Part shown: positions 132-62,018 of the stretch, piece after piece
Numbering within the stretch: the stretch's first letter is position 1
Layout of the letters: each line of letters starts with the position of its first letter
Virus record (IMG/VR): IMGVR_UViG_3300032294_002797
Location: 1 to 64,000 of that record
DNA from: a virus
Reading direction: 5' to 3' (one strand)
Length of the DNA stretch: 64,000 nucleotides
Program-made: the position numbers and the translations under genes
The notes under the pieces: generated by a model
Seen by the model: only the letters and a program-made list of their open reading frames with translations
What the model was told of the DNA's origin: nothing
Databases searched by the model: none

Positions 132-417
132 TTTTAGATTTCTCTAATTGTTCTATTAATTCATTTCGCCTATGATGCCATAACCTAGCCAATCCTAGAC
201 AGTTATCAGTATATCCTGTTGTGTTGGGATTGTCAAATACAAAATCGGCCAACGCCTCACTTAACTTTAAAATATCATCCTGTCCCAATCTGTGAGTAGT
301 ATATCCATCATATCCATAAATTCTCAAATCATATGGCTTATTAGTGATATTAGGATTATGATGAATTTCCACTAACAGATCATCAATAACTATAGTTTGT
401 TTTTTATAGTCGCTCAT
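124..417 (-). CDS. Hypothetical phage protein, 97 aa
   Basis: I chose the ATG at 417 (MSDYKKQ), which overlaps the end of the upstream gene; a longer version would start inside that gene. The product is soluble and mixed charge, with a C-terminal amphipathic, Lys/Glu-rich helix. No family is recognised. It is the middle gene of a three-gene overlapping run. Confidence 0.7.
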   Translation of the reverse strand: MSDYKKQTIVIDDLLVEIHHNPNITNKPYDLRIYGYDGYTTHRLGQDDILKLSEALADFVFDNPNTTGYTDNCLGLARLWHHRRNELIEQLEKSKND

Positions 418-810: not shown

Positions 811-1536
811 ATGAAAACAAAAATTTGTGGATCATGTAAAGTTGAGAAATCTATTGAAAGATTTTGTAAAGATAGTAGAAAAAAATCTGGATTATGTAGT
901 CAGTGTAAAGATTGTCGAAAAAAATATAATGATAACAATAAAGAAAAAAGACAAAAATATTATGAAGAAAACAAAGAACTAATATCTTTAAAAAATAAAA
1001 TATATAGATGTTCTAATAAAGAAAAATTAGATAAATACTATCAAAAACATAAAAAAAGACACAATGAATATTCTAAACGATGGTATCATTCTCATAAAGA
1101 ATCACAATCAAAATACAATAAAGAATGGAGAGAAAAAAACAAAGATAGACATCATGCAAATTATATAAAATGGAAAAATAAAAACCAAAAATATTTAAAA
1201 AAATATAGAAGAAAAAGAAGAAAACAGCCAACAGTTAAATTGATAGATAATGTAAGAAGAAGAATCAATAGTATGATTAAAAATAAGAGTAAACATTCAA
1301 TAGATTATTTAGGTATAGATATAAAATCATATAAGAAATATTTAGAAAATTTATTCCAAAAAGGTATGACTTGGAAAAATTATGGAGTTAAAGGATGGCA
1401 TATCGACCACATTATCCCACTATCTTCTGCAAAAAATGAAAAAGAATTGATTAAATTATTCCACTATTCAAATACTAGGCCTTTGTGGGCTAAAGATAAT
1501 CTAATTAAATCAAATCGTCATCCTCATACTTTTTAA
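811..1536 (+). CDS. HNH homing endonuclease-like protein with N-terminal zinc ribbon
   Basis: Free-standing HNH nuclease of 241 aa. The start is the ATG at 811 (MKTKICGSC), just after the plus-strand promoter; an in-frame extension to 760 would overlap the -35. Residues about 5-35 have CxxC and CxxC pairs (CGSC, CSQCKDC), a zinc ribbon. A long Lys/Asn/Tyr-rich helical linker follows. The C-terminus carries GWHIDHIIPLSS, the HxxDH core, plus a LFHYSNTRPLW segment typical of phage HNH proteins. Its 3' end overlaps the convergent gene at 1505. It is the only plus-strand gene in its neighbourhood, consistent with insertion of a selfish element. Confidence 0.88.
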   Translation: MKTKICGSCKVEKSIERFCKDSRKKSGLCSQCKDCRKKYNDNNKEKRQKYYEENKELISLKNKIYRCSNKEKLDKYYQKHKKRHNEYSKRWYHSHKESQSKYNKEWREKNKDRHHANYIKWKNKNQKYLKKYRRKRRKQPTVKLIDNVRRRINSMIKNKSKHSIDYLGIDIKSYKKYLENLFQKGMTWKNYGVKGWHIDHIIPLSSAKNEKELIKLFHYSNTRPLWAKDNLIKSNRHPHTF

Positions 1537-18086: not shown

Positions 18087-18175
18087 AATTTCGTGACGCA
18101 AACCCTTGTCGCACAAGCACTTACGTCAAAATCGGCCCGCCCGATTTGCCCTAAGTCTTTGCTGGGGCAGGATTT
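18087..18175 (-). repeat. Family A bipartite repeat, copy 2
   Basis: Its right hairpin contains the TAG stop (18151-18153) of the phosphoribosyltransferase gene. Confidence 0.75.
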
Positions 18176-18657
18176 AGGAGAGGCACCCGGAAATCCTTCT
18201 CAAACATTTTAACCGTGTCTGAGCGATAAGCACATTCGTCTGGCATATAGCAATAAACACCTACACACTGTGCTTTGGGACAATCTTCATGGATAGTATT
18301 TTTAATATGCCTAATGGTTGAGCCAGAGCAAACTAGATCATCAACAATAATGTATCTGAATGGAGTTACTCCCTCCATAGGAAAATCGCTGTAGCATTTC
18401 TCATCTGGCTTACGAATAAGAACAATATGTTTTTTCAGTAATTCAGCAATTTGTGGAACAACAACAAGTCCACTCACACCACAACAAGCAATACTATCAA
18501 ACTCGTTAGCAATCTTTCTTAGATCACAAACAGCCTTGATAATAACTTTGTTTCTGGCCTGATGATTTAATACCCTGCAAGTGTGGCTAGCACCTTGAAT
18601 AATCTTACCATCTTCGGTGCGTCTAAAGTCTTCAACCATATTATTCATCACATTCAT
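18151..18657 (-). CDS. Phosphoribosyltransferase-family protein
   Basis: 168 aa. The PRPP-binding loop is YIIVDDLVCSGSTI at residues about 102-115 (two adjacent acidic residues then S-G-S-T), preceded by a hydrophobic strand, and CCGVSGLVVVPQIAELL supplies the upstream PPi-loop region. This is the type I PRTase fold used in nucleotide salvage. The base acceptor cannot be read from sequence. The start codon lies only 3 nt after a tRNA-like element, with no ribosome-binding site, so the mRNA may be released by tRNA-type processing. Confidence 0.85.
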   Translation of the reverse strand: MNVMNNMVEDFRRTEDGKIIQGASHTCRVLNHQARNKVIIKAVCDLRKIANEFDSIACCGVSGLVVVPQIAELLKKHIVLIRKPDEKCYSDFPMEGVTPFRYIIVDDLVCSGSTIRHIKNTIHEDCPKAQCVGVYCYMPDECAYRSDTVKMFEKDFRVPLLNPAPAKT

Positions 18658-18660
18658 AAA

Positions 18661-18737
18661 AACGGACGGTACGATTTGAACGTACTAGAAAGAAAGGAAA
18701 GAAAGAATAGATACTTGTCCCACCAAGTTGCGTCCGT
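18661..18737 (-). ncRNA. tRNA-like element without a normal anticodon arm
   Basis: Minus strand: 7-bp acceptor ACGGACG/CGTCCGT, D-arm ACTT-GGTGGGAC-AAGT, and T-arm GTACG-TTCAAAT-CGTAC are all perfect. Where the anticodon arm should be there are 27 nt of almost pure pyrimidine (TCTATTC, TTTCTTTCC, TTTCTTTC) that cannot form the 5-bp stem. It starts 11 nt after the stop of the gene at 18749 and ends 3 nt before the PRTase ATG. Could be a degraded tRNA or a processing signal. Confidence 0.65.
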
Positions 18738-18748
18738 TCAGAAAAGAT

Positions 18749-18943
18749 TCAATCGTCAATTAGTTCGTCTGTGATATTATGATAATAGTTTTCCCAGCCA
18801 GCATTATCCATAGTCTCAGTCTCGTCTTCATCAAGACCAGCCCAAGGCTCATCAGTGCCATCATTATAGTAGCACTCGTCTTCATACAATTCTTCAGAAT
18901 TGTCTAGAATATTATGATAGTCATATTCAAAATCTCTACTCAT
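18749..18943 (-). CDS. Acidic hypothetical protein, 64 aa
   Basis: The ATG at 18943 (MSRDFEYDY) follows AAAGGAG. Highly acidic with Tyr/Asn (DECYYNDGTDEPWAGLDEDE), similar in character to the acidic proteins at 29879 and 30178. DNA-mimic behaviour is conceivable but unproven. Confidence 0.7.
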   Translation of the reverse strand: MSRDFEYDYHNILDNSEELYEDECYYNDGTDEPWAGLDEDETETMDNAGWENYYHNITDELIDD

Positions 18944-18992: not shown

Positions 18993-18993
18993 G

Positions 18994-19066
18994 TGGGGCC
19001 TGTGGGACTCGAACCCACGACCAAAGGTTTAAAAGACCCTTGCTCTACCAACTGAGCTAAAGCCCC
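18994..19066 (-). tRNA. tRNA-Lys(TTT)
   Basis: Complete cloverleaf: GGGGCTT/AGGCCCC acceptor, anticodon loop CTTTTAA, T-arm GTGGG-TTCGAGT-CCCAC. CCA not encoded. Confidence 0.95.
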
Positions 19067-19277: not shown

Positions 19278-19309
19278 GACTTAGTGAGTTGTACTACAGG
19301 AGTTCCATT

Positions 19310-19798
19310 ATGAAATGTATTAATTGTAATAAAGATACAGATAACCCTAAATTTTGCTCTAGATCATGCGGAGTGTCTTATAACAACAGAGTAAAACCAA
19401 AAAGAATTAAAAGAATGCAAACATGTATATTTTGTAAAAATCAATTTCATTCTTTACATAGTTATAATCAAAAATATTGTAATAAAAAATGTTTACAAAA
19501 TCATAGAGAGCACAATATCCAAACCAATGGTTTTGGAGAAGGTCATTATCATAATAATTCTATTAGAAAATACCTAATTAAAAAACATGGTAATCATTGT
19601 ATGATCTGTAACCAGTCTGGAGATAATTGGAACGGTAAGCCAATTACTTTAATTGTGGATCATATTGATGGTAAATCTAATAACAATAAACTAGATAACC
19701 TTAGAATTGTTTGTCCTAATTGCGATAGTCAACTACCTACATACAAAGCAAAAAACAAAGGAAATAGCACTCGTAGTTATTTTATAGTCCAAAAGTAA
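19310..19798 (+). CDS. HNH endonuclease with N-terminal zinc ribbon, inserted in tRNA cluster
   Basis: 162 aa. Starts MKCINCNKDTDNPKFCSRSC, a treble-clef-like zinc ribbon, with a second CIFCKNQF ... CNKKC site. C-terminal HNH: CMICNQSGDNW, then VDHIDGKSNNNKLDNLRIVCPNCDSQL, a well-conserved phage HNH core with both metal-binding CxxC pairs. The only plus-strand gene in the cluster, it lies between tRNA-Glu and tRNA-Ile and ends 3 nt from tRNA-Ile. Probably a free-standing homing endonuclease targeting tRNA genes; that target is inference. Confidence 0.9.
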   Translation: MKCINCNKDTDNPKFCSRSCGVSYNNRVKPKRIKRMQTCIFCKNQFHSLHSYNQKYCNKKCLQNHREHNIQTNGFGEGHYHNNSIRKYLIKKHGNHCMICNQSGDNWNGKPITLIVDHIDGKSNNNKLDNLRIVCPNCDSQLPTYKAKNKGNSTRSYFIVQK

Positions 19799-47945: not shown

Positions 47946-50900
47946 ATGAGTATAGTATCCGTTCAAGAGCAATTTCAACCATCTAGATATCTTGTAATAT
48001 CTAATTTATCTAATTCACAAGAGATATCTACAACCAGAGTTCTAGTATCTGATTTAAGAACTAATACTATTAATTTGGTCACCATAGAAAAAGGTCCAGT
48101 CGGCGATACTGGACCACAAGGACCTAAAGGAGAACCCGGTAAAGATGGTTTAATTTTTAATGTATTGCCAATTACTAGTGGAGGTACCAATAATACTAAT
48201 TTTGATACCAATTATTTGATCTCATATGATGGAAATAAACTTGTTAGCTCTCCGTATACCGTTAATGATATAGTTAATCTGAGTAATGCTACTAATAATA
48301 GTATAACTGGTATAATAGCCGGTTCTGGAATACAACGCACAATCGGTCCCAATAATACTTCTATTTTAGATGTAAAAATCGGAGATGGTCTAAGAATTTC
48401 CAACTCTACTATTGTAGTAGATGATAGTGTCGTTAGAGCTACTGGCGTTAATATAAATCAATTGATCGGCACGCTCCCAATTTCTAAGGGAGGCACAAGT
48501 AATTCTTCGTATTCTGTTAATAGATTAATTTATTACAATGGTTCTAGTTTTAGTTCTTTTCCTTTGAATACTGGAAATATTGTAGTTAGCGGATCCACTA
48601 TAAATATTGTAGCTGGTTCTGGTCTTATTGGCGGAGGACTGACCACAGTACCAAACGGCACGGTGGTTTTGGAAATTGGTCCTTCTTCAGATATTTTAGT
48701 TGAAGAAAATTCTATATCTTTAACTCCTGTAGGATCTCCAGGAACATATACCAAAATTACGACAGATGATAAAGGAAGAGTCATATCTGGATCATCATTA
48801 ACTATTCAAGATATTATTGCATTGTTGGGATATACTCCTTGGCATGCCGGTAACGACGGAGAATCATCCGGACTGGATGCTGATTTATTAGATGGGAGGC
48901 ATGGATCTTTTTATCAAAATGCTAACAATTTATCTGGCACATTAAATTTAGATAGACTGCCCAATTTACACAGTCAATCCCAAGTAGGAACCAAATTTGT
49001 TATCAATACCAAAGGCCTGATAGAAGATGTATATCTCGCTGATTCTCAAGATATTATTTCTTCTCTTGGCTATAGGCCGCTAAATGCTGAATCAGATGAC
49101 ACAAAATTAGGATCATTAAATATTATTGGTAATTTAATTACTAGTGCTGGAGATGTTAGCCTATATGACAATCTTCCTCTGTTAGGTACAAACAGACCTA
49201 ATATATTACCCTCCGAGCCAAGAGGATTTACTTTTAATTATGGTGGATCTTTTACTAATAAAACAGGTATCTTAGCATATTATCCTACAGATAATCAACT
49301 TAGATTGATTACTAATATTTTTGGATCGGGTTCTAGTATAGATGCTAATGATATAAATCAGGACGATATTAATGGAGGAGATGCTCAATCTATTTATATA
49401 ATAGAGAATCTACAGGGAGATACTAGTACAGTTTTATTTAGAGAAATTGCAGATCAACTATATATTAGTACAAATACATCTCAAACTATATATGGCTTTA
49501 AAAGATTCTTAGCAGACTTAGAGGTTGCATCACAATTACGTATACTGGGAGACAATGCTACTCCTACTAGACCTCCGTTGTCTGTTGGTAATAATAATTT
49601 ATTAGTAACTAATTTAAATGCGGACTTATTAGATAATGCGCACGGATCATTTTATCGTAATGCAGCAAATATCACTGGGTCTTTTAGTTATAATAATGTT
49701 ACCTTTGATCACATTCAGGGCGAAAATAATTTTATACCTAAGTTTACAGATCCCAGAGAACCTTCTCGTCAAATCACAGCATCTAATATTTTACAAAGAT
49801 CTAATGGCGACATAGAAATTAGTAATGAAAGGAATCTGATTGTTGGACTAGATGATAATGTTACTGATAGTGCTTCTATTAATACGCTCACTGTTGGAGA
49901 AAACAATTTCACCAGTTCTGAAAATAGCATATCAATAGGTCAACATAATATATTAGCCGGCTTTAATTCTGCTACTATCGGCAGTCGCAATATGGCAAGT
50001 GGCGATAATTCTATTGCTACTAATTTAGGTTCTACTACCAGAAGTGATCAGTCAGTAGCTATGGGTTCTTATGGCATAACAGAGGTGCCTAACCAGTTTG
50101 CTTTTGGAGCTTTTAGAACAGTGGGTTCTGGTAATCAAATTTTGGAACACGGACAGTATTCAACTGTTGCAGCTTATTTAAGGGGCACAGAGACGGATGG
50201 TAATTGGCGCTCTATGACACCTATTATTAATTTACCTAAAGATAAAACTATAGCATTCAATATAGAACTATTAATTAATAAAGGTCTAAGTAGCGGTGTT
50301 GGACATTTTCTTTTTGAAAGTGGTATTATTAATAATGCAACCTATCGTAATCCTTTAAATATTACAGAAATACTAAATAGTACAACTGTTCCCAATAGCG
50401 GAACTAAAATACAAGTATTTAATAACTCTCAACTACGTAGACATTATCATTTTTGGAACTATACAAATCCAGTAAGACCAGAATCGCCAACCCGAGTCGG
50501 ACAATATATAAATTGTCTGGATGCTCCTAATAGAGAACTTGATATATCTATTCGACATTTACCTACTTATCATATGTATACTCCAACACAGGTACATATA
50601 AGTGGCATATTCGAAAAAACTTTTGATGGTAATCTCATTCTAGATGTATCTAAACCTAGATATAGCGGTATTTTTACCCAGTCGTTTACAAGTCCTCATA
50701 TCTCCATATACAGTAAAAATCATGGCGTGGTACAAGACTCAGAAGTAGATATAGAATTTGTAAGCAGCTCTAAATATTTTTTACCCAAAAAGAGATATAA
50801 AGCTCTGCTAAGTGGTCAAGACTCCTTTTTTGTATCATCACCAGAATGGAGAGGAGTCAAACAAACACTAAATAACGAAACTAAAATTTATATTCAAAAT

Positions 50901-53900
50901 ACTAGTGAATATAATAAATTATTTGCATTTGATTTTATTGCTTCTATTAGTAATAATATCATTACTTTACCCATCGGTACGGTAAATAATGCCGGCTATA
51001 GAATAGATCAAATTGCTAAAAATAATATGAATATTAAGCTTGTACAACCTTATTCTAATATAGCCTATAATCGAATTATACAATCTATTAGTGGCAATAA
51101 ATTATTTATTAACTATCCATTATACTCAGATAGTCCTAATCCACAACAATTTACTGGAGATATTCGTGTTATTCTAGATAATTACTCTTTTTTTGTATAT
51201 AAAGAATGCGATAGTCTTTATATTAATTCTGAGTTTCAAAATATCAAAGATGCAAAAGCCACAAATACTGCGCAGTTTTTCCCTGATGCGAGATTTTCAT
51301 TTGTAAATGACGGCGGATCAGGCACGGTGATCAATCCCCAAGATGCTCTTTTATACAGCAATCAAAATAATTCTATAGAGATAGCTGTTGATGATATTGA
51401 TCAAAATGGAATATTTGATTTAGATGATGTAACAAATGTGGCCACAAACAATAATCCTTTTATATTTTCTATATCTATACCATACAACATTACTAATATT
51501 TCAGATGGCTCCGTTGTTTCTGTAAGACCCGTTTTTAATAATAATACAGGAACATTAAATTTATATCATAGAAATACATATAATTGTAGTTATAGCTCTA
51601 CATACTCTGATCTCAATAAACATAGTGGCTGTTATATTAGATGGAAAGATGATAGTAATTATCACAGAATATCTATTTTTGATTCTGGAAATAAACCTGT
51701 CAATTTTATATCCAATCCTCCGTCATTTGAGTTATCTAACGGATATTTATCTGATAATAATAAATTTTTTAATATTCAACAAAGTGGTAATAGATATTAT
51801 TTATATACTAATACATCTTTTGATTATGAAACTAATAATATAATTCCCATTAGAGTTAAAGCATCATCACACAAAGATAATATTGCTCCTAATTTTGAAA
51901 AAATTCTTTATATCTATATACAGAATCAACAAGAAAATCCTTTAGTAGCTAAACCTATTGGTAATTTTAATATTTATGCTAATGATATTTTTGAATATAA
52001 TGTTCCTAGTGATACTTTTTCTGATTCAGATCATGGAGAACTAAAATATTCCGCAGAGATAAAAGGTGGACACTCCTTACCAAGATGGTTAGTATTTAAT
52101 AGCCAAACTATTAGTTTTAGCGGAACGCCGGATATATGCGATATAGGAGCTTATTCTATAGATTTAATAGCTACAGACGAAGATGGCTTGAGTATTACAG
52201 ATAATTTTATTATCGAGGTTGCCGATAATCCTGTATCAACCATGGAAGTCTTCGCTTATGACGTGAGCAATATTCTAAGAACAGAAAATATTTATCTTAC
52301 ACAAAATCATTTGGAGGAAAACGCACCTCCGGCTACACTTGTTGGAGAATTGCGTCATATCGGAGGATATAATCCATACATAACATTTTTGACTGCAGAA
52401 AATAATTTTTCCGGCATCTTGAATAAAAATAGCGATATCGTCACAAAATGTAAGCCCATTTTACAACATTATATCCCAGCATCTATATCAGGATCTCCAG
52501 AGTTTCTATCTATTTATTCTGATGTATCTCTTAAAGACAATCTTAACAATACTTTGGGATCTGGATATAAAGTAAAAAATGTATATAAGCCAACTATTTT
52601 TAGCGGAACACCTATTAATAATGGCAAAATTATTTTTGATAATACTAATTTTGATTATTCTGTATCTACATTATTTACAAATCAGTTATTACCCATGAGG
52701 AATGTTAATCCGTCTTTTGGTTCTAGGATGAGAATCGGCTCATTTAATGATTATAGCGCCACGTTGACGAATGGATTATTACAAGAAAAAAGAGGTTCAG
52801 ATATAGAGCTTATTTTGACCGAGAATAATGAAGTTATAAATCATAATATGAATGAACTTTTAATTTCTTATTATATTGAGGAAGAAGACCGATTTAATGA
52901 TATATGTTCAGAGAATGAAGTAGATAAATTAATATATACTAACTATCATGAATATAAAAATATTTCATGGTCCACCAAAAATATGTACTCTTGGTTATTC
53001 ACAGAGTCTGAAGATTCTAATTTGGTGCCAGAAAATAATGTTCTCCAGAACCTACAAAGCGAAAATATATCTAACCTAGAGAGTATTTCGTATCCACCCA
53101 CTTATACAAATATAGAATTATTAACAGAAAATTACGAGAATATAAATGATGAAGCTTATTTTTCATTAACGGATAATATTGTAGATTATGTGTGGTACTC
53201 TGATGATCCTATAAAAATTTATCGACAATTTCATAACAATATTGATAGATCTTTTATAGACAATAAGAGTCCTAATTATCCGCTAAATCCATTACAACAA
53301 TTATATTACAGTAATGATACTATAGGATTATTACAGTCAAATATAGATTATACTAGAGATAACAATCAATTAAATTATGCTCATGACTACTGGTATTTTG
53401 ATAAAGAACTTAATAATGCTGTCTTATATGTCGATAAATTAGGTTCTGATGATAATGCTCATTTTATTACAGAGCAACGCATTTATGCTGGAGCCTACAT
53501 TGATAGCGCCCCATATGAGTATGGTTTATTAATCACAGAGGATGGCCATGGAATTATTTCTAATACAAAAACTCATCATGGATCAAGAATAGAGTTATCT
53601 GATAGATATGAAATTTTGGAATCAATTAATATATTTAATGATAATGGCAAAATTTTTCTCGATTCTTCTATTGACTCTCTTCTTTGTGAAAATAACGATC
53701 TTGTAGTACACGACTATGCCATTAGCGCTAAGAGTGGTACGGCGTACATCCTATTTCCTGGTAAAAATAATCAGATTAAAATTAATTATCCTAATAGAGC
53801 ATCATTATCTGCTAATAGAATAGGTCATGGTCAACAGGGATATTATGAAGATCAACTGTCTCTATTACCCACAAGTCTAAAATTTACTGAACCAAACTTT

Positions 53901-56900
53901 TTCTATACCTGGGGTAAGCTTATTCCGTATAGACTTTATACAGATGAATATGCTATAAGACTTGATTCTGCTTATAGCGGAATATCTCAAAATGGCAAGA
54001 TTTGCTATTCTGGTAATATTCCTGATTCTGGACATTATTTTCCAGAAATTTTTCAGACCTATAACTTTACTACCTATACAGGTATTTGCCCGATACCTTC
54101 ATTATCTGGAGGCTTTAACGGCTTTGGTATCAGAGAAAATTATAATGATAATGGAGAGTATGTTACGGGACTAGTTACTTTTTATACGGATGTAACATCT
54201 TCTAAGATTTCTATTAGTGCTATAAATGATGAATTTAATTTAGATGAACGAAATACCGATTATCTCAGGATCTATAACCCGGTCACATCCGCGTATAATC
54301 CTCAATTGCCTAGAATAGATACTTATTTCGATATCGATATTTTATCTGACAAAGCTTTTTCTGTAGAAAATTTATTTTTATACCCATCCATATATAATAT
54401 TGTTCATTCCGGTAATATTTCTGTTAATCTAGATCGTAATCATAATCGTAAGAGCTATAGTCCTAAAATAGTAAATAGAATACCCATAGTTTTTGATACT
54501 GTCTATAATTCAAATCAAAATCGCTTACCAAAAAATAACTTTTTTGATATAGAGAGTATCAGCGGAAATAAAATCTACGTTAAGGATGACAGAAGCTATC
54601 TTCTTAAAGAAAGTATTTATCCTGATTATTTTAATCATGCTGTACGAGCATCCTATTTGACCAATGGTTGTTCATTTTTAGGATCTTTATTTCATAATAA
54701 TAATAAGATATATGATATAAGACCCAATTTAAATTTATTTGATCAAGTCTATAATAATGCTACTTTCGAATTTGACAAGAACAAAAAAGAACTCGCTATA
54801 AATTTACCTACTGGTCTTGTAAAAGTATTTGACAATATTGAACTATTCAATTTTGCTGCATTATCTCCTTATATGATTTTTGATACGTCTAAAGTCTACC
54901 ACACAGGCTTCACTGTATTGCAACAAAATATGTCTATCAGAAATACCGATCCCACTCCGGAACAAGATTTTATATTGATGGAAAGATCATTAACAGTTCT
55001 AGCTCCAGATAATATCGAAAGACTAACCTTCAATAGTGATATATTCAGTAATTCGGTGTCAGGGACATGTTCTATTTCGTCTAAATTAGCAAATAGACTT
55101 GCTACCGGATATTTATTAAACTACACAGACAATATATCTAATCAATCTGGTCACCAGGTGTTAAGTATTCAAAACGGATATCAATTATCTGGAGTTATTC
55201 CTCGTAATCATAATATTCTATCATCCACTGGAATTCTTCTAGATGACAGGCTGGGTTTTTCTAGTGTAATATCTACCGGATCTCCGATTCTACTTAGCGG
55301 AGTGAAAACACACAAGATCGTTGACTCCGATGATATTGGGTATACAGAATTTTATAGGATTAATGCCTCTGGATTCCCTGTTCATCACTTGTTATCTAGT
55401 GGTATTTATGGTAAAGGAACTGTTTCTTTGCCATATAAGATTTTTATAGATACAAGCGGATCCAGCACAAATACGAGAATGGTAGAACTTTTATATCTTG
55501 GACATAACCCTAATACTCTAAATTTTTATGGAGTATTGAGCACGTCCGGATCAATGGGAGATTTTTCTATCACACAAATAAAATTAGCTGATCAATTGCA
55601 CATCGATTATTTAAATAAATTAGGTGTTGTTTCCGGCGTAACTCCTGTGATAGATACCGGAACACTAGGCTATGATTCAAATATTAATTGGTCTATACCA
55701 GTTGATAGATATGATATCATTCAGTTGAGAATTGATCCTAATAATATGCCTTCTGGTAATAATGCTTGTTATTTATATGCATATATGCAAGATCCGGCTG
55801 ATCCCTTACCTCTTAAGCTAGATCATCCGTCGCTAGTTAATACTGGCATAGCATACTTTCCTTCTTATAAAGAGATAAATAAATCTTTATTTTATATTTT
55901 ACCAACTATTAATACTACAGTTAAATATTGTAATCTTAATCAACCATATAATAAAAATAATAATATATTTTATAATGGCAATATTATTCAGTTAACTCGC
56001 TTAGATTCTATTAAAAGTTTTCTTAATAAAAATGATCATATTAAATTACAAAAAATTAATGATGTAAATATTATTGGTGGATCGCATATCAATAAAATAA
56101 ATAACAGCAATGAGACCACTCATATAACAGGAATATCTATAGACGGAAAGATCGCCATACCTCCAAATCAATATATGTATGCTAGCAAAGCTTTGTTAGA
56201 AGACACAAACAGACATGTAGACGTATTCTCTACTGGTATTAACACTCGAACTCCTATATCTGGATACATCGATTTTGTAGGGTATAATTCCGGATCGTTT
56301 AACTTAATAGACTATAACAATCTTATAGTGCAGTCTCATGGAGGTTCTACTGCTAGGTGGCCCCAGGATACTGATGGGCATCTTGTTCCTCCTATATTTA
56401 CAGGTATATATTCTGTAGTAGATAATGGTACTTCATCGTGTACCTCTGGAAGATTATGTGTATCAATATCTGGATATAAAAATACTCCTATATCTGATTA
56501 TATGTTATTTGATAAATATTATTATTTTGATTTTATTGATGGTATGCCATCATCTAGTAATCTTTATAAAATTAAAGATAAATTATCATATCAAAAAATA
56601 TCTATAGATATACCATATGATACTAGTTTGATTAATAATTCTGGTCTAGTTTACATAATAGATAGTCACTTTAATATCAAGCCCCACCTGGATCCTAATT
56701 TAAATAATGCCTTTATAAGAAATGTTGCCACGCTTTCTAATGTAAATAATATTGATCTGCTGGAACATACTATACATGCATTTGACGACAGTACTAAAAA
56801 ATGGAACCATATCTTCCATCTGCCTCAAACATTACCAGCATTTTCATCTTATCCCATCTCTGTGTCCATAGGTTCTGCGTTACAATCTGGTAATATTGTC

Positions 56901-59900
56901 AATTATCCAGAAATTCCCAAAATAGGCATTCGTGATGTGTCGGTATTAAAAAATAGAGATTTTGCTATATTTAATCCTGTAACTAATAATATGTCGACCT
57001 ATACTGATACTGATGCGCTTACAGTGAGAGTTAGGATCAGCGGAGGTACTCCTCCATTAAATAGCAATATTTCTATTAATACTCCTAAGATATTTATTAG
57101 CGGAGTAGCGGAATATAGTTTTCTATATTTTGATAGTTTATATGGATATACATCATCTGGCTGGAATATAGGCATCAATATCTATCCGTTTAAAAATACT
57201 GGGGTGTTTCCTATAGCGATTGGTGTCTTTGATGAAACTGGTTCAGATTATAGATATCTTAATTTGAGTATTACTGAAAGACCTATGATAGTACCTACCT
57301 ATCCTACTGGGTATGCATCAGTAACTTCTCCTTATTGGAAGCTATATTTTGATGTTAAAGGTATAGATTTAGGAGTTAATAATCCTAACGATCAAGGATT
57401 ATTCGTTTACGGATCACCCAATGATTTCAGTTATGATTTTGTAAGACATTCATCTTCTGAGCTAGAGCTTATAGGCTATCCAGCTGGTGGTGGATTTTCT
57501 ACTGGTATTTGGAATCCAATAGTTATTGTCAATGATTTTAATAGCGGTCAAATAATAGCTTCGGGTAGTGGTTCTTTACATATATTATCTAGCTTAAATG
57601 ATAGACCTCCATATACTCCACATATTAATAATTTAAATACTAACACATATATAAATTTAGCAAAAGATGAAAATATATCATTTCAGGTGCCGGTTTACGA
57701 AACGGATCAGCAACACTCTTCTATCACCACATCAGTAAATGGAGGAGTATATTTTGGAACAACACGAATCTTTGCTGGTTTTGATCCTGGCCTAAACAGA
57801 TTTAACATAGAATATGTGCCGACTAACACCGGAAATACATCGTATTTATCAGAAACAGCTTATGCTGCTGATAGACTGGTCAATTTCTCGGTATCTCAAC
57901 CTATATATACAAATGGCAATCCGAGTTGGACTACTTATACTTCAGAAAATTATTTGACTAATTTTACTTTTTTCAGACCATTGCTTATAGATACTACTTT
58001 TACCAATACAGTGCCCGAATTTGAAATTGATAAACCGTGGGTATACGAATTTGCTATAGTAGAGGGAGTTTGCAAACATAGGCCCAATCTACCTCCAAGA
58101 GTAACATTATTTAATACTCCTAATTTTGGCACTATAACACACAGATATTTATCTTATAGTTTGTCTTATAGATATGATAATATTAATAAACTGTGGATCG
58201 TAACAGCGCAAGGTAAGCCAGACATATATGGTAAATATGCTCCGTCTACCGGTATATATACTATGAATATTTTTGCTGATGATACATACGGGAGCTATAG
58301 TCGTTCTTCATTCAATATCAAGTACATTCCCACTAATTCTATACAATATATTTTTCCTAATTTATACAATACTCCTAACAATGAATTTTTTATTCAAGCT
58401 GATATCAAGGAGCCAAATAGTGGGGTATACCCGAATATTACATTTGATGGTGAAAATACTATCGATATGAACTATGCTAATATGTACAAAAAGTATAATA
58501 AAGATTTGAATATCTGGGAGGTAGCTGGAACAGGTAATAAATTTGTACAGAAATGGGATTCTAGAATTTTAATAGATAAGACATCTATTAATCCTTCTAT
58601 CACTCTTCAATGCAAAGGCATAGCTACAGATAAGATTACGGCTGTGGCAAAAGTTAATTTACTAGAATTACAAAATACTAATAGAGATATTGTTATTGAT
58701 CAAGCAAAATCAATAAAAATTAGTGGCATTAAAAATTATACCAATCCAGAATCTGGAATTATTATTAAACAAGGTGACGAGCCGTGGACACTGGAATTTG
58801 ATACTATTTTTGGTTTGGAGTCACCATTACATCCTCCTACTATTATTTTACAAAACACTCCAACTTTTTGCACAGGATATGACCCTCGTTTAGATCCCAA
58901 ATATAGCGATGTAATCGATCCGAATTTACAAAATCCATGCTTGTCTTCATCTAGTCCATCTTTCAATGATAATCTTAAAACTTGGCATTTTAAGTTTTCT
59001 GGAGTGCCGTCGTGCTCCTTGTTGGGATCATTACCATTCACGATTACTGCCATAGATACAAATTTGGTATTAGAAAATCCATATATAGAACCACCAGATA
59101 TTGTAGATACTTTATTTACTTATGTTCCTATAGATATTCCTCATCCTGATCCCGTTGTACAAGATAAAGAGGATCCTCAGGAGCAACTATTACTCAAGCC
59201 GCTGTGTGATACATTTTATTTTCGTAAATTAAAATTCGGCCCCAAAGCAAGAGAACAATGTCCACAGCCAACTGGTTTAACTGGGATAATTATTAGCGGC
59301 AGTTTACCATCTGGCTTAAGCTATACTATTAATTATCCATCTTATTTATTAGATAATCCTTTTAACGCTCCGCTATATAATAACTTACAGAGTGGAGAAG
59401 TTATTATCCAAGGATATCCTTTGTCTTTTGCTCCCAATGGTGCTGCATACGATGAAACTTTCGGCATTACAGTGGTAGACGCAAGAAATAATAGCGGATC
59501 TAAGGTTCTAACTTTTAATCAGACAGTTTCTATCAATGATCCTAACATTAGCATAGCAGTTTACTTCGATAGTGATAAGCCGGTATTTACACCATCTACC
59601 GGACTACAAATTTTACCACTACAGGGAACGTATAGATGGAAACCAGAGCCTATTGTTGATGAATTAGAATGTCGTAGTATATTACCTAATAATACATGTC
59701 CAACTAAGATTATCCCATATAGTGGACAAGAAGAACCAGACTCACTTCTATTTTTGCTGATGAATGAAACTAATAATTTTGGTATCCAGTCAGAAGATCT
59801 TGTGATAGGGAATGAAGTTTATATCAGAATAAATCAAGATGTCAGTAATTCGAATAATGGAAGATATTCTTTAAAGAAAACTACTTCGAGTTTTCCTGGA

Positions 59901-62018
59901 TCTCCAGTTCCATCTAATCTGTGGTATGTAAATACAAAAGAAGCTTTTCAACCCAGAACCGGATTAGTTGATATTGTAGTAGGAAATTATAAATTTGAAA
60001 ATATCAGTGACTTGAATAATTTATTTAATGGAGATATACAATATAATTTTGGATGCTTATTGGGTAATGGATCCATAGGAAACGATGGACTGAACAATAA
60101 GCTGGGCATTAAAGGATATCTAAGTCCCGGTTTTAGCGGATATCTGCCCACAAATGGAGCATGGAAGTCGAATGATGTTAGATTAACAGGTCTACGTTTT
60201 ATAAATATTGATTCTTCTAATACTAGAACCAATATAGCATATACTAATTGCTGGGAAACAGGATATTTAAGGATCAGCGGAGTTGTATTGCCGAGGCCGT
60301 ATGTGGAAATAACGGATCCTCCACCAGCGGCTAATAATAATTTTAGTTGGGATGGTTCGTCTTTTGCTTTAGATACTAGACTATCATTTGGTAATACTCA
60401 GCTGGAAAGAGGCATCGTAGAAAATCTGCGTAATGGAACAGCAAACTACTTATTGACCAATATGTATACCAATCAAACAGAATTATCCGGCTCTCAGTCG
60501 ATATCCCTGACTAGCCCAGTGGCTATCAATTTAACATCTGCTATTTTGGGTAATGCCGCTCGTGGCACAGGCACTGTATTTAAATTAGACATAGAATCAC
60601 CATCTAATTCTACTTTTCCAACCTTTAATGTTCAGGCTAGGCCGGGTGCTATCCCATCCACATATTTCTGGGTACATAAGGCTACCGCTACACCAGTTAC
60701 AAAACCTTCTCAATCATCATTACCTCCTATTATCCCTTGCATACCTGAATATATTAGTATAGTTAGTGGAGATATTATTAATAATATTAGTCCATCTATT
60801 TATGGCATAGATGGTTCTGCATACGGAGGATACATTCCTCACGATATTTGTTTTCCAGAGCCTCCTACCTGCTCTAATAACGAATTATATTATACTAGCG
60901 GAGGATCTCCATGGTTAGCTAAGAATTATCTTCCCATTATATCTGGCATTATACTAGAGTCTATAAATACTAAAAATAATTTTAAAACCACAGGTAGTTA
61001 CAACTCTTCGGCTCAAACTGTTTTAATTAGCAATATCAATAATGTATTATTAGAGGGAAATCTAATAAATATAACAATTACCAAAACAGAATGGAATAAC
61101 GAGATAACTGTCGTTGATTCATTTATAACAGAGCTATCTTCAACCAATATAGTCGGAAATAATGTTGTATTCTATAATAAAATTTATACTAATATAGGAC
61201 AGAGCGCTTTGATGATAGATATTAAATTTCTAAATCAAATTAAAGATATAGATACTATTAATAATTTAGTTACTGTTTATCATAATAATCTAAATCTATC
61301 AATTAATGATAATATAGCCATGAGTTCTGTTAGTGGATCTACATCATTAAATGCTATCGATTCTCCTGGAGTGCCCTATATTGCCGTCATAGATAATACA
61401 GGATTAATAATTAGCACTAATCTATATAATAATTTCAACATAGGCAATTATGTAAATATATACAAAATCATAGAAGATAATATTAAAATTATGCCAAATA
61501 ATATATCTTCAGATCAAGAAGGTGTTTATGATTTCAAAATCTCTGGAAGAGCCAATATTTTATATGGTAACTATTTTTATCGTATTATGACTAAAGAAAA
61601 TATAAATATGCCTATATTTAGTAATATTAGTACAAATATTGTTCCTAAAAAATATGAAAAAGACATTCCTATGGTGGTTAGTAAGCCATTAGAGATACTG
61701 TCGGCCTCTGTTACTTGGCCTTCAGCATCTAATAGTTGGACTGTTACCCTAGAGATAGATGGGGGCAGACTGCCAGCTCTGTCTGAAACTATTGATGTCA
61801 GAATAGACCTAGATGGTACTGAAAATTATGTTCGCTGTGGGTTTAGAAGATTTCCTATAAATAAAGATAAAGATATATTTAATCCGATAAATAATACTAC
61901 TATTATTACTTTATCTTCTATTCCTAATACGGTGGATTGGGGTAACCAATCAGCATTTCATATTAGGGTTTCCGATAGCACCGGCACAGATACCGTACTT
62001 ATATTGAAGGATACATGA
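47946..62018 (+). CDS. Giant tail-fibre/adhesin-like protein, 4,690 aa
   Basis: One uninterrupted 14-kb frame. N-terminus: IEKGPVGDTGPQGPKGEPGK collagen-like repeat (residues about 50-75), then fibre repeats with ITSGGTNNT and ISKGGTSNS, two DADLLDGRHGSFY / NADLLDNAHGSFY units, and YadA-head-like NSISIGQHN, SATIGSRNMASGDNS and SVAMGSYG near 650-710. Near 1310-1430: cadherin/PIG-like domain (SDSDHGELKY, LVFNSQTISFSGTPD). Many FSGTPxNNG/ISGVP-type Ig-like units follow. No protease or enzyme domain seen. Probably host recognition or decoration of tail tip; the single frame may be processed. Confidence 0.85.
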   Translation: MSIVSVQEQFQPSRYLVISNLSNSQEISTTRVLVSDLRTNTINLVTIEKGPVGDTGPQGPKGEPGKDGLIFNVLPITSGGTNNTNFDTNYLISYDGNKLVSSPYTVNDIVNLSNATNNSITGIIAGSGIQRTIGPNNTSILDVKIGDGLRISNSTIVVDDSVVRATGVNINQLIGTLPISKGGTSNSSYSVNRLIYYNGSSFSSFPLNTGNIVVSGSTINIVAGSGLIGGGLTTVPNGTVVLEIGPSSDILVEENSISLTPVGSPGTYTKITTDDKGRVISGSSLTIQDIIALLGYTPWHAGNDGESSGLDADLLDGRHGSFYQNANNLSGTLNLDRLPNLHSQSQVGTKFVINTKGLIEDVYLADSQDIISSLGYRPLNAESDDTKLGSLNIIGNLITSAGDVSLYDNLPLLGTNRPNILPSEPRGFTFNYGGSFTNKTGILAYYPTDNQLRLITNIFGSGSSIDANDINQDDINGGDAQSIYIIENLQGDTSTVLFREIADQLYISTNTSQTIYGFKRFLADLEVASQLRILGDNATPTRPPLSVGNNNLLVTNLNADLLDNAHGSFYRNAANITGSFSYNNVTFDHIQGENNFIPKFTDPREPSRQITASNILQRSNGDIEISNERNLIVGLDDNVTDSASINTLTVGENNFTSSENSISIGQHNILAGFNSATIGSRNMASGDNSIATNLGSTTRSDQSVAMGSYGITEVPNQFAFGAFRTVGSGNQILEHGQYSTVAAYLRGTETDGNWRSMTPIINLPKDKTIAFNIELLINKGLSSGVGHFLFESGIINNATYRNPLNITEILNSTTVPNSGTKIQVFNNSQLRRHYHFWNYTNPVRPESPTRVGQYINCLDAPNRELDISIRHLPTYHMYTPTQVHISGIFEKTFDGNLILDVSKPRYSGIFTQSFTSPHISIYSKNHGVVQDSEVDIEFVSSSKYFLPKKRYKALLSGQDSFFVSSPEWRGVKQTLNNETKIYIQNTSEYNKLFAFDFIASISNNIITLPIGTVNNAGYRIDQIAKNNMNIKLVQPYSNIAYNRIIQSISGNKLFINYPLYSDSPNPQQFTGDIRVILDNYSFFVYKECDSLYINSEFQNIKDAKATNTAQFFPDARFSFVNDGGSGTVINPQDALLYSNQNNSIEIAVDDIDQNGIFDLDDVTNVATNNNPFIFSISIPYNITNISDGSVVSVRPVFNNNTGTLNLYHRNTYNCSYSSTYSDLNKHSGCYIRWKDDSNYHRISIFDSGNKPVNFISNPPSFELSNGYLSDNNKFFNIQQSGNRYYLYTNTSFDYETNNIIPIRVKASSHKDNIAPNFEKILYIYIQNQQENPLVAKPIGNFNIYANDIFEYNVPSDTFSDSDHGELKYSAEIKGGHSLPRWLVFNSQTISFSGTPDICDIGAYSIDLIATDEDGLSITDNFIIEVADNPVSTMEVFAYDVSNILRTENIYLTQNHLEENAPPATLVGELRHIGGYNPYITFLTAENNFSGILNKNSDIVTKCKPILQHYIPASISGSPEFLSIYSDVSLKDNLNNTLGSGYKVKNVYKPTIFSGTPINNGKIIFDNTNFDYSVSTLFTNQLLPMRNVNPSFGSRMRIGSFNDYSATLTNGLLQEKRGSDIELILTENNEVINHNMNELLISYYIEEEDRFNDICSENEVDKLIYTNYHEYKNISWSTKNMYSWLFTESEDSNLVPENNVLQNLQSENISNLESISYPPTYTNIELLTENYENINDEAYFSLTDNIVDYVWYSDDPIKIYRQFHNNIDRSFIDNKSPNYPLNPLQQLYYSNDTIGLLQSNIDYTRDNNQLNYAHDYWYFDKELNNAVLYVDKLGSDDNAHFITEQRIYAGAYIDSAPYEYGLLITEDGHGIISNTKTHHGSRIELSDRYEILESINIFNDNGKIFLDSSIDSLLCENNDLVVHDYAISAKSGTAYILFPGKNNQIKINYPNRASLSANRIGHGQQGYYEDQLSLLPTSLKFTEPNFFYTWGKLIPYRLYTDEYAIRLDSAYSGISQNGKICYSGNIPDSGHYFPEIFQTYNFTTYTGICPIPSLSGGFNGFGIRENYNDNGEYVTGLVTFYTDVTSSKISISAINDEFNLDERNTDYLRIYNPVTSAYNPQLPRIDTYFDIDILSDKAFSVENLFLYPSIYNIVHSGNISVNLDRNHNRKSYSPKIVNRIPIVFDTVYNSNQNRLPKNNFFDIESISGNKIYVKDDRSYLLKESIYPDYFNHAVRASYLTNGCSFLGSLFHNNNKIYDIRPNLNLFDQVYNNATFEFDKNKKELAINLPTGLVKVFDNIELFNFAALSPYMIFDTSKVYHTGFTVLQQNMSIRNTDPTPEQDFILMERSLTVLAPDNIERLTFNSDIFSNSVSGTCSISSKLANRLATGYLLNYTDNISNQSGHQVLSIQNGYQLSGVIPRNHNILSSTGILLDDRLGFSSVISTGSPILLSGVKTHKIVDSDDIGYTEFYRINASGFPVHHLLSSGIYGKGTVSLPYKIFIDTSGSSTNTRMVELLYLGHNPNTLNFYGVLSTSGSMGDFSITQIKLADQLHIDYLNKLGVVSGVTPVIDTGTLGYDSNINWSIPVDRYDIIQLRIDPNNMPSGNNACYLYAYMQDPADPLPLKLDHPSLVNTGIAYFPSYKEINKSLFYILPTINTTVKYCNLNQPYNKNNNIFYNGNIIQLTRLDSIKSFLNKNDHIKLQKINDVNIIGGSHINKINNSNETTHITGISIDGKIAIPPNQYMYASKALLEDTNRHVDVFSTGINTRTPISGYIDFVGYNSGSFNLIDYNNLIVQSHGGSTARWPQDTDGHLVPPIFTGIYSVVDNGTSSCTSGRLCVSISGYKNTPISDYMLFDKYYYFDFIDGMPSSSNLYKIKDKLSYQKISIDIPYDTSLINNSGLVYIIDSHFNIKPHLDPNLNNAFIRNVATLSNVNNIDLLEHTIHAFDDSTKKWNHIFHLPQTLPAFSSYPISVSIGSALQSGNIVNYPEIPKIGIRDVSVLKNRDFAIFNPVTNNMSTYTDTDALTVRVRISGGTPPLNSNISINTPKIFISGVAEYSFLYFDSLYGYTSSGWNIGINIYPFKNTGVFPIAIGVFDETGSDYRYLNLSITERPMIVPTYPTGYASVTSPYWKLYFDVKGIDLGVNNPNDQGLFVYGSPNDFSYDFVRHSSSELELIGYPAGGGFSTGIWNPIVIVNDFNSGQIIASGSGSLHILSSLNDRPPYTPHINNLNTNTYINLAKDENISFQVPVYETDQQHSSITTSVNGGVYFGTTRIFAGFDPGLNRFNIEYVPTNTGNTSYLSETAYAADRLVNFSVSQPIYTNGNPSWTTYTSENYLTNFTFFRPLLIDTTFTNTVPEFEIDKPWVYEFAIVEGVCKHRPNLPPRVTLFNTPNFGTITHRYLSYSLSYRYDNINKLWIVTAQGKPDIYGKYAPSTGIYTMNIFADDTYGSYSRSSFNIKYIPTNSIQYIFPNLYNTPNNEFFIQADIKEPNSGVYPNITFDGENTIDMNYANMYKKYNKDLNIWEVAGTGNKFVQKWDSRILIDKTSINPSITLQCKGIATDKITAVAKVNLLELQNTNRDIVIDQAKSIKISGIKNYTNPESGIIIKQGDEPWTLEFDTIFGLESPLHPPTIILQNTPTFCTGYDPRLDPKYSDVIDPNLQNPCLSSSSPSFNDNLKTWHFKFSGVPSCSLLGSLPFTITAIDTNLVLENPYIEPPDIVDTLFTYVPIDIPHPDPVVQDKEDPQEQLLLKPLCDTFYFRKLKFGPKAREQCPQPTGLTGIIISGSLPSGLSYTINYPSYLLDNPFNAPLYNNLQSGEVIIQGYPLSFAPNGAAYDETFGITVVDARNNSGSKVLTFNQTVSINDPNISIAVYFDSDKPVFTPSTGLQILPLQGTYRWKPEPIVDELECRSILPNNTCPTKIIPYSGQEEPDSLLFLLMNETNNFGIQSEDLVIGNEVYIRINQDVSNSNNGRYSLKKTTSSFPGSPVPSNLWYVNTKEAFQPRTGLVDIVVGNYKFENISDLNNLFNGDIQYNFGCLLGNGSIGNDGLNNKLGIKGYLSPGFSGYLPTNGAWKSNDVRLTGLRFINIDSSNTRTNIAYTNCWETGYLRISGVVLPRPYVEITDPPPAANNNFSWDGSSFALDTRLSFGNTQLERGIVENLRNGTANYLLTNMYTNQTELSGSQSISLTSPVAINLTSAILGNAARGTGTVFKLDIESPSNSTFPTFNVQARPGAIPSTYFWVHKATATPVTKPSQSSLPPIIPCIPEYISIVSGDIINNISPSIYGIDGSAYGGYIPHDICFPEPPTCSNNELYYTSGGSPWLAKNYLPIISGIILESINTKNNFKTTGSYNSSAQTVLISNINNVLLEGNLINITITKTEWNNEITVVDSFITELSSTNIVGNNVVFYNKIYTNIGQSALMIDIKFLNQIKDIDTINNLVTVYHNNLNLSINDNIAMSSVSGSTSLNAIDSPGVPYIAVIDNTGLIISTNLYNNFNIGNYVNIYKIIEDNIKIMPNNISSDQEGVYDFKISGRANILYGNYFYRIMTKENINMPIFSNISTNIVPKKYEKDIPMVVSKPLEILSASVTWPSASNSWTVTLEIDGGRLPALSETIDVRIDLDGTENYVRCGFRRFPINKDKDIFNPINNTTIITLSSIPNTVDWGNQSAFHIRVSDSTGTDTVLILKDT

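Follow-up and report, generated by a model that had tools for sequence, protein, structure and literature searches.

A phage RNA family with the top half of a tRNA and no anticodon arm, a candidate tRNA mimic

The element and its locus

The stretch of DNA analysed here (the window) comprises 64 kb of the 223-kb record of a virus that infects bacteria. On its minus strand, downstream of a cluster of ordinary tRNA genes, a short acidic open reading frame (ORF), a tRNA-like element and a phosphoribosyltransferase (PRTase) gene follow one another (Table 1). The packing is tight, with 10 nt between the upstream stop codon and the element; the 3 nt between the element and the PRTase ATG (18657) and the lack of a ribosome-binding site for the PRTase are as the sequence-only reading had described them. 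A neighbour resembling the acidic ORF is also found upstream of the element in most relatives. An HNH-type endonuclease ORF, possibly a homing gene, was noticed on the opposite strand within the tRNA cluster (19289-19798, plus strand), and an open reading frame of 4690 aa lies downstream of the head genes (47946-62018, plus strand).

Read 5' to 3' on the minus strand (window 18738..18661), the element is AACGGACG CA ACTTG-GTGGGA-CAAGT ATCTATTCTTTCTTTCCTTTCTTTCTA GTACG-TTCAAAT-CGTAC CGTCCGTT. It has the acceptor stem, the D-loop GG and the UUCRANN T-loop arm of a canonical tRNA, but the anticodon arm with its 7-nt loop is absent both from it and from its relatives. The place of this arm is taken, as had been proposed, by a 27-nt tract (18686..18712), which does not form any stem. 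The perfect 5-bp T-arm with TTCAAAT was likewise borne out, whereas the lengths given earlier to the other two helices had to be revised. The acceptor stem is indeed paired, but it reads better as 8 bp than as 7 bp, the extra pair being present in 16 of 21 distinct relatives in comparison to 52 of 126 (41%) ordinary tRNAs of the same viruses (a ninth pair is found in 2 of the 21). The D-arm and its GG stood, but with a stem of 5 bp instead of 4 bp and the 6-nt loop GTGGGA. When both strands of the 64-kb window were searched by brute force for an acceptor stem, a D-arm, any linker and a T-arm, ordinary tRNAs and the element were the only results.

Table 1. Features of the element and of the adjacent genes in the window.
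Feature	Position	Strand	Remarks
Whole tRNA-like element, 78 nt	18661..18738	-	Covariance model R1, 79.7 bits (sequence among the 18 used for building R1)
Acceptor stem, 5' strand (AACGGACG), 8-bp stem	18731..18738	-	All 8 pairs with double-sided changes among relatives
Junction CA, 2 nt	18729..18730	-	tRNA position 8 is C
D-arm ACTTG-GTGGGA-CAAGT	18713..18728	-	5-bp stem, 6-nt loop; loop conserved
Polypyrimidine linker (ATCTATTCTTTCTTTCCTTTCTTTCTA), 27 nt	18686..18712	-	Replaces the anticodon arm
T-arm GTACG-TTCAAAT-CGTAC	18669..18685	-	Perfectly paired
Acceptor stem, 3' strand (CGTCCGTT)	18661..18668	-	CCA not encoded
5' leader CTTTTCTG	18739..18746	-	Pyrimidine-rich
PRTase gene	18151..18657	-	No Shine-Dalgarno; ATG 3 nt past the element
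Short acidic ORF	18749..18943	-	Stop 10 nt before the element; start taken at the ATG within the listed TTG ORF
Ordinary tRNA-Lys(UUU)	18993..19066	-	Closest member of the tRNA cluster

Relatives and conservation of the fold

In viral contigs, the same fold lies immediately before the genes of PRTase homologues. To avoid circularity, we anchored the loci by the PRTase protein only, and the element, with the same missing arm, was present at 75 of 80 viral loci, every one with the D-loop GTGGG[AT]; for each of the D-stems found in this way (ACTTG, GCTTG, TCTAG, TCTCG and ATACG) the partner strand matches. A pattern of D-arm and T-loop yielded 50 viral stretches, with a matching acceptor in all but four, and a pattern with a longer linker yielded many more viral members; the pattern-found members from other groups than the PRTase one had in part been chosen for their pairing. 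When the six D-loop bases were left free, the candidates with a credible acceptor stem had GTGGGA only, plus one GTGGGT. In the first search with model R1, elements scored at least 42 bits and tRNAs at most 29 bits. Some long-linker members scored 30-37 bits, which overlaps with tRNA scores (up to 33), and their membership is based on the shared D-loop and acceptor.

In 25 distinct sequences with the linker removed, 97.8% of cells were paired, in comparison to 69.1% after shuffling and 30.4-42.5% after sliding, and 15 of 18 pairs, in all three helices, had changes on both sides. As this set had been pre-filtered for pairing, the PRTase-anchored loci provide the cleaner support. The structure is under selection and is kept by compensatory change. 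In the wider set of 74 strict elements, the eighth acceptor pair is present in 53 (one clade has T:T there) and position 8 is C in all 74, where ordinary tRNAs have U8. The D-loop GUGGG(A/U) and the T-loop UUCRAAU are fixed across the family, and positions 14 and 21 form a G:C pair in place of the canonical A14/A21 core. The acceptor pairs, on the other hand, vary freely over the 74 elements, in which neither an acceptor identity element nor a discriminator is conserved; CCA is encoded in almost none of them, with an in-register ACCA directly after the stem in L027 only.

The sequence-only reading had also considered a recent wreck of a tRNA. The absence of the anticodon arm and the loss of the element in a few relatives would suit a decaying tRNA gene, a chance fold or an assembly artefact, but compensatory change in three helices, retention at 75 of 80 PRTase-anchored loci and occurrence in many independent contigs leave this explanation with next to no probability. 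Covariation rules out a decayed tRNA or a chance fold, and the identical architecture in many other contigs indicates that the tract is no artefact. None of the relatives had the element in a form with a normal anticodon arm.

Comparison with known RNA classes

When the locus was compared with tRNA models, ARAGORN and Rfam made no call on the window element, including no match to RF00005. In other records (L011, L025, L027, L035, L051, L053 and L055) the element does receive an ARAGORN call, as tRNA-Lys, Asp, Cys, Ile, Leu, '???' or Pyl, and false tRNAs of this type may be present in public annotations. Because tRNA finders overlook or mislabel such RNAs, a structured RNA in dozens of viral contigs has apparently gone unnoticed; in the open-licence literature on anticodon-less phage tRNAs we found no description of the family.

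Several known RNAs share parts of this architecture. tRNA-Sec has an 8+5 bp acceptor/T stack and a lengthened D-stem with a short loop, of which the eighth pair, formed in 53 of 74 elements, and their 5-bp D-stem are reminiscent; the (UCA) anticodon arm and the long variable arm pattern of tRNA-Sec are lacking. The tRNA-like domain of tmRNA has an acceptor and a T-arm, and the anticodon arm is missing from it as well. tmRNA has no D-stem and contains a tag-coding part, whereas the elements have a D-stem of 5 bp and linkers of ~9-63 nt; neither a tmRNA match nor a tag reading frame was found on the elements, and L028 and L047 carry a separate permuted tmRNA gene. YrlA mimics the D, T and acceptor arms without an anticodon (PMC8394870), but the ends of this Y RNA form a separate Ro-binding stem, and a TROVE/Ro (Ro/Rsr) protein was found in none of 33 carrier records, which are partial; the host may have a Ro protein. 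Searches with the Rfam models of tRNA-Sec, tmRNA and YrlA (RF02553) gave no match, either for the window element (E<=5) or for the elements of ten other carriers (E<=0.05). We reject Y RNA for the lack of both a TROVE protein in these records and an Rfam match, and tmRNA and tRNA-Sec for the lack of an Rfam match; membership in any of these classes is, all told, very improbable.

Closer in some respects are mascRNA and menRNA (of MALAT1 and NEAT1), which lie inside longer transcripts and have an acceptor stem, a small D-arm with guanines touching the T-loop and no usable anticodon (PMC11693755). They differ in belonging to animal nuclear lncRNAs and in keeping a longer stem at the anticodon position, and their processing is proven, whereas that of the phage element is deduced from its fold. 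Species 1 RNA of phage T4 (rnaC) is also a stable phage RNA whose gene adjoins a tRNA cluster and whose T-arm resembles that of a tRNA, but it is annotated as 139 nt, and R1 matches only its T-arm (16.5 bits), which falls short of homology.

Leader, linker and the PRTase gene

Linkers of some relatives contain a small hairpin, which the window version lacks. About half of the PRTase-type members in the tree have a long linker, mostly with such a hairpin, and the long-linker character changed at least five times on the PRTase tree. The PRTase-type linkers are G-poor, with CCTTTC in 46 of 59 and a longest pyrimidine run of 14.0 in comparison to 8.8 after shuffling; those of the other groups are rich in GC, rich in AT or just ~10 nt long. 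The leader is 81% pyrimidine in 58 PRTase-type relatives, in comparison to 49% before 607 ordinary tRNAs. Purine-rich sites in the window that complement the linker were uninformative; they exceed chance only modestly, and 2 of the 11 are the tract itself.

In the PRTase group the ATG follows the acceptor at a distance of 0-12 nt, immediately so in L101 and L171. A Shine-Dalgarno (SD)-like motif was present in none of 39 PRTase genes of relatives, as against 86 of 160 control ORFs (54%), the 39 genes being related and not independent counts. L156, L177 and L178 have cleanly lost the element, and a second copy was not found elsewhere in their records; their PRTase is still SD-less, with an AT-rich leader. 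The lack of an SD is therefore independent of the element, and the element is not essential. In L225 (1407-1480, plus strand) and L008 (1736-1809, plus strand) an ordinary tRNA-Lys(UUU) stands directly before the SD-less PRTase and the element is absent; in L008 it ends 2 nt before the ATG, in the same slot as the element. Both look like a neighbouring tRNA of the cluster and not like an intact form of the element.

Members that do not belong to the PRTase group have other neighbour genes, and the next gene is often tens to hundreds of nt away. Each searched record has one copy of the element, and the records of several carriers contain no tRNA gene.

Possible functions

It is nearly certain that the element belongs to an undescribed family of phage noncoding RNAs consisting of the top half of a tRNA without the anticodon arm. 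The conserved structure, the fixed D-loop, C8 and T-loop, the free middle, the single copy and the unrelated neighbours characterise this family, which is best read as one of tRNA mimics. The proposal of a tRNA mimic in the sequence-only reading is strongly supported.

The half that is retained comprises the acceptor stem, the D-arm, the T-arm and the elbow of D-loop and T-loop. Since the elbow and the acceptor/T stack read by RNase P and RNase Z are present, the transcript is likely to be processed like a tRNA, that is, cut out by these two enzymes and then given CCA. In mascRNA and menRNA, D-loop guanines and the T-loop can recruit RNase P/Z without aminoacylation (PMC11693755). The free RNA could then act in trans, tying up a host or defence protein that recognises the elbow and the acceptor end of tRNAs; such a mimic could not take part in decoding and would be safe from anticodon nucleases. 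This trans-acting mimic is our best guess, with a roughly even chance of being right, and a decoy role may be proposed for it by analogy. It is favoured by the residues fixed beyond the needs of processing and by the members without a PRTase. That no acceptor identity or discriminator is conserved and that CCA is almost never encoded would suit an RNA for which charging does not matter.

The RNA is unlikely to serve as a decoy for an anticodon nuclease, since the arm that it lacks is precisely that of the anticodon. It has been proposed that phage tRNAs withstand anticodon nucleases (PMC10264068); an RNA without an anticodon cannot replace cleaved tRNAs, so any role in defence would be of another kind. 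As a bolder and unlikely extension, a virus-only RNA family spread across unrelated phages might use a tRNA without its decoding arm as a weapon or shield that saturates a host or anti-phage enzyme attacking or reading the acceptor end of tRNAs (e.g. a nucleotidyltransferase toxin), a role unlike that of the known phage tRNAs, which stand in for cleaved ones.

The fixed position 0-12 nt before one gene in the PRTase group stands against a role in trans and suggests a local one. In the main rival explanation, RNase P and RNase Z would cut the fold out of the operon transcript, leaving the upstream gene with its 3' end and the PRTase with a leaderless or nearly leaderless mRNA. The short distance to the ATG, the consistent lack of an SD-like motif and the tRNA-Lys filling the same slot in L008 all speak for such punctuation in cis. 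It is weakened by the three relatives whose PRTase is SD-less though the element is lost and by the members with other neighbours and a distant next gene; moreover, an ordinary tRNA would do equally well, which leaves the fixed C8 and GUGGG unexplained. We regard it as rather unlikely. The working part could also be the pyrimidine-rich leader and linker, whose CU tract would bind ribosomal protein S1 or purine-rich (Shine-Dalgarno-like) RNA and so tune translation, as the recurrent CCTTTC, the long pyrimidine runs and the composition of the leader may indicate. However, the tract is absent from the other groups and its complements in the window exceed chance only modestly, so that this explanation seems improbable. 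Finally, the complete acceptor and T-arm, together with the ACCA of L027, would allow a charged, non-decoding tRNA that donates its amino acid outside the ribosome. This is highly doubtful, as no acceptor identity or discriminator is conserved, G3:U70 (alanine) was seen in none of the elements and G-1:C73 (histidine) in only 11 of 74.

Whether phages turn tRNA mimics against host tRNA biology has been an open question since the discovery of the T4 stable RNAs C and D, and the present family offers a direct test of it. It is also a natural case in which the handling half of a tRNA is separated from the decoding half.

Distribution and neighbouring RNAs

Across the genomes of 85,000 species of bacteria and archaea, a pattern scan gave 9 chance-looking matches, none with a paired acceptor; the pattern required a T-arm closed by CC and would overlook members of the PRTase type. 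A BLAST search of cultured phages, whose sensitivity is low for a query this short and variable, revealed no convincing carrier, and three weak matches gave no match to the model. No nearest isolates were found by the portal protein, and among cultured phages the PRTase has only distant relatives, which are genes of mycobacteriophages.

Other structured RNAs were observed next to some elements. In L027 an abiF RNA (RF03085, 57 bits; 347-383, plus strand) lies 12 nt downstream of the element, and no AbiF/Abi_2 gene was found in this partial 25-kb record. RNAs of the abiF type have been shown to neutralise the AbiF protein (PMC12373285). The L027 copy is possibly a viral mimic of the antitoxin RNA, and its proximity, as a clue to the function of the element, is suggestive only. 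Permuted (two-piece) viral tmRNA genes adjoin the element in L028 (860-1250, minus strand) and L047 (1788-2301, plus strand), and in L105 a skipping-rope RNA (RF02924, 51 bits; 1015-1122, minus strand) lies ~200 nt from it.
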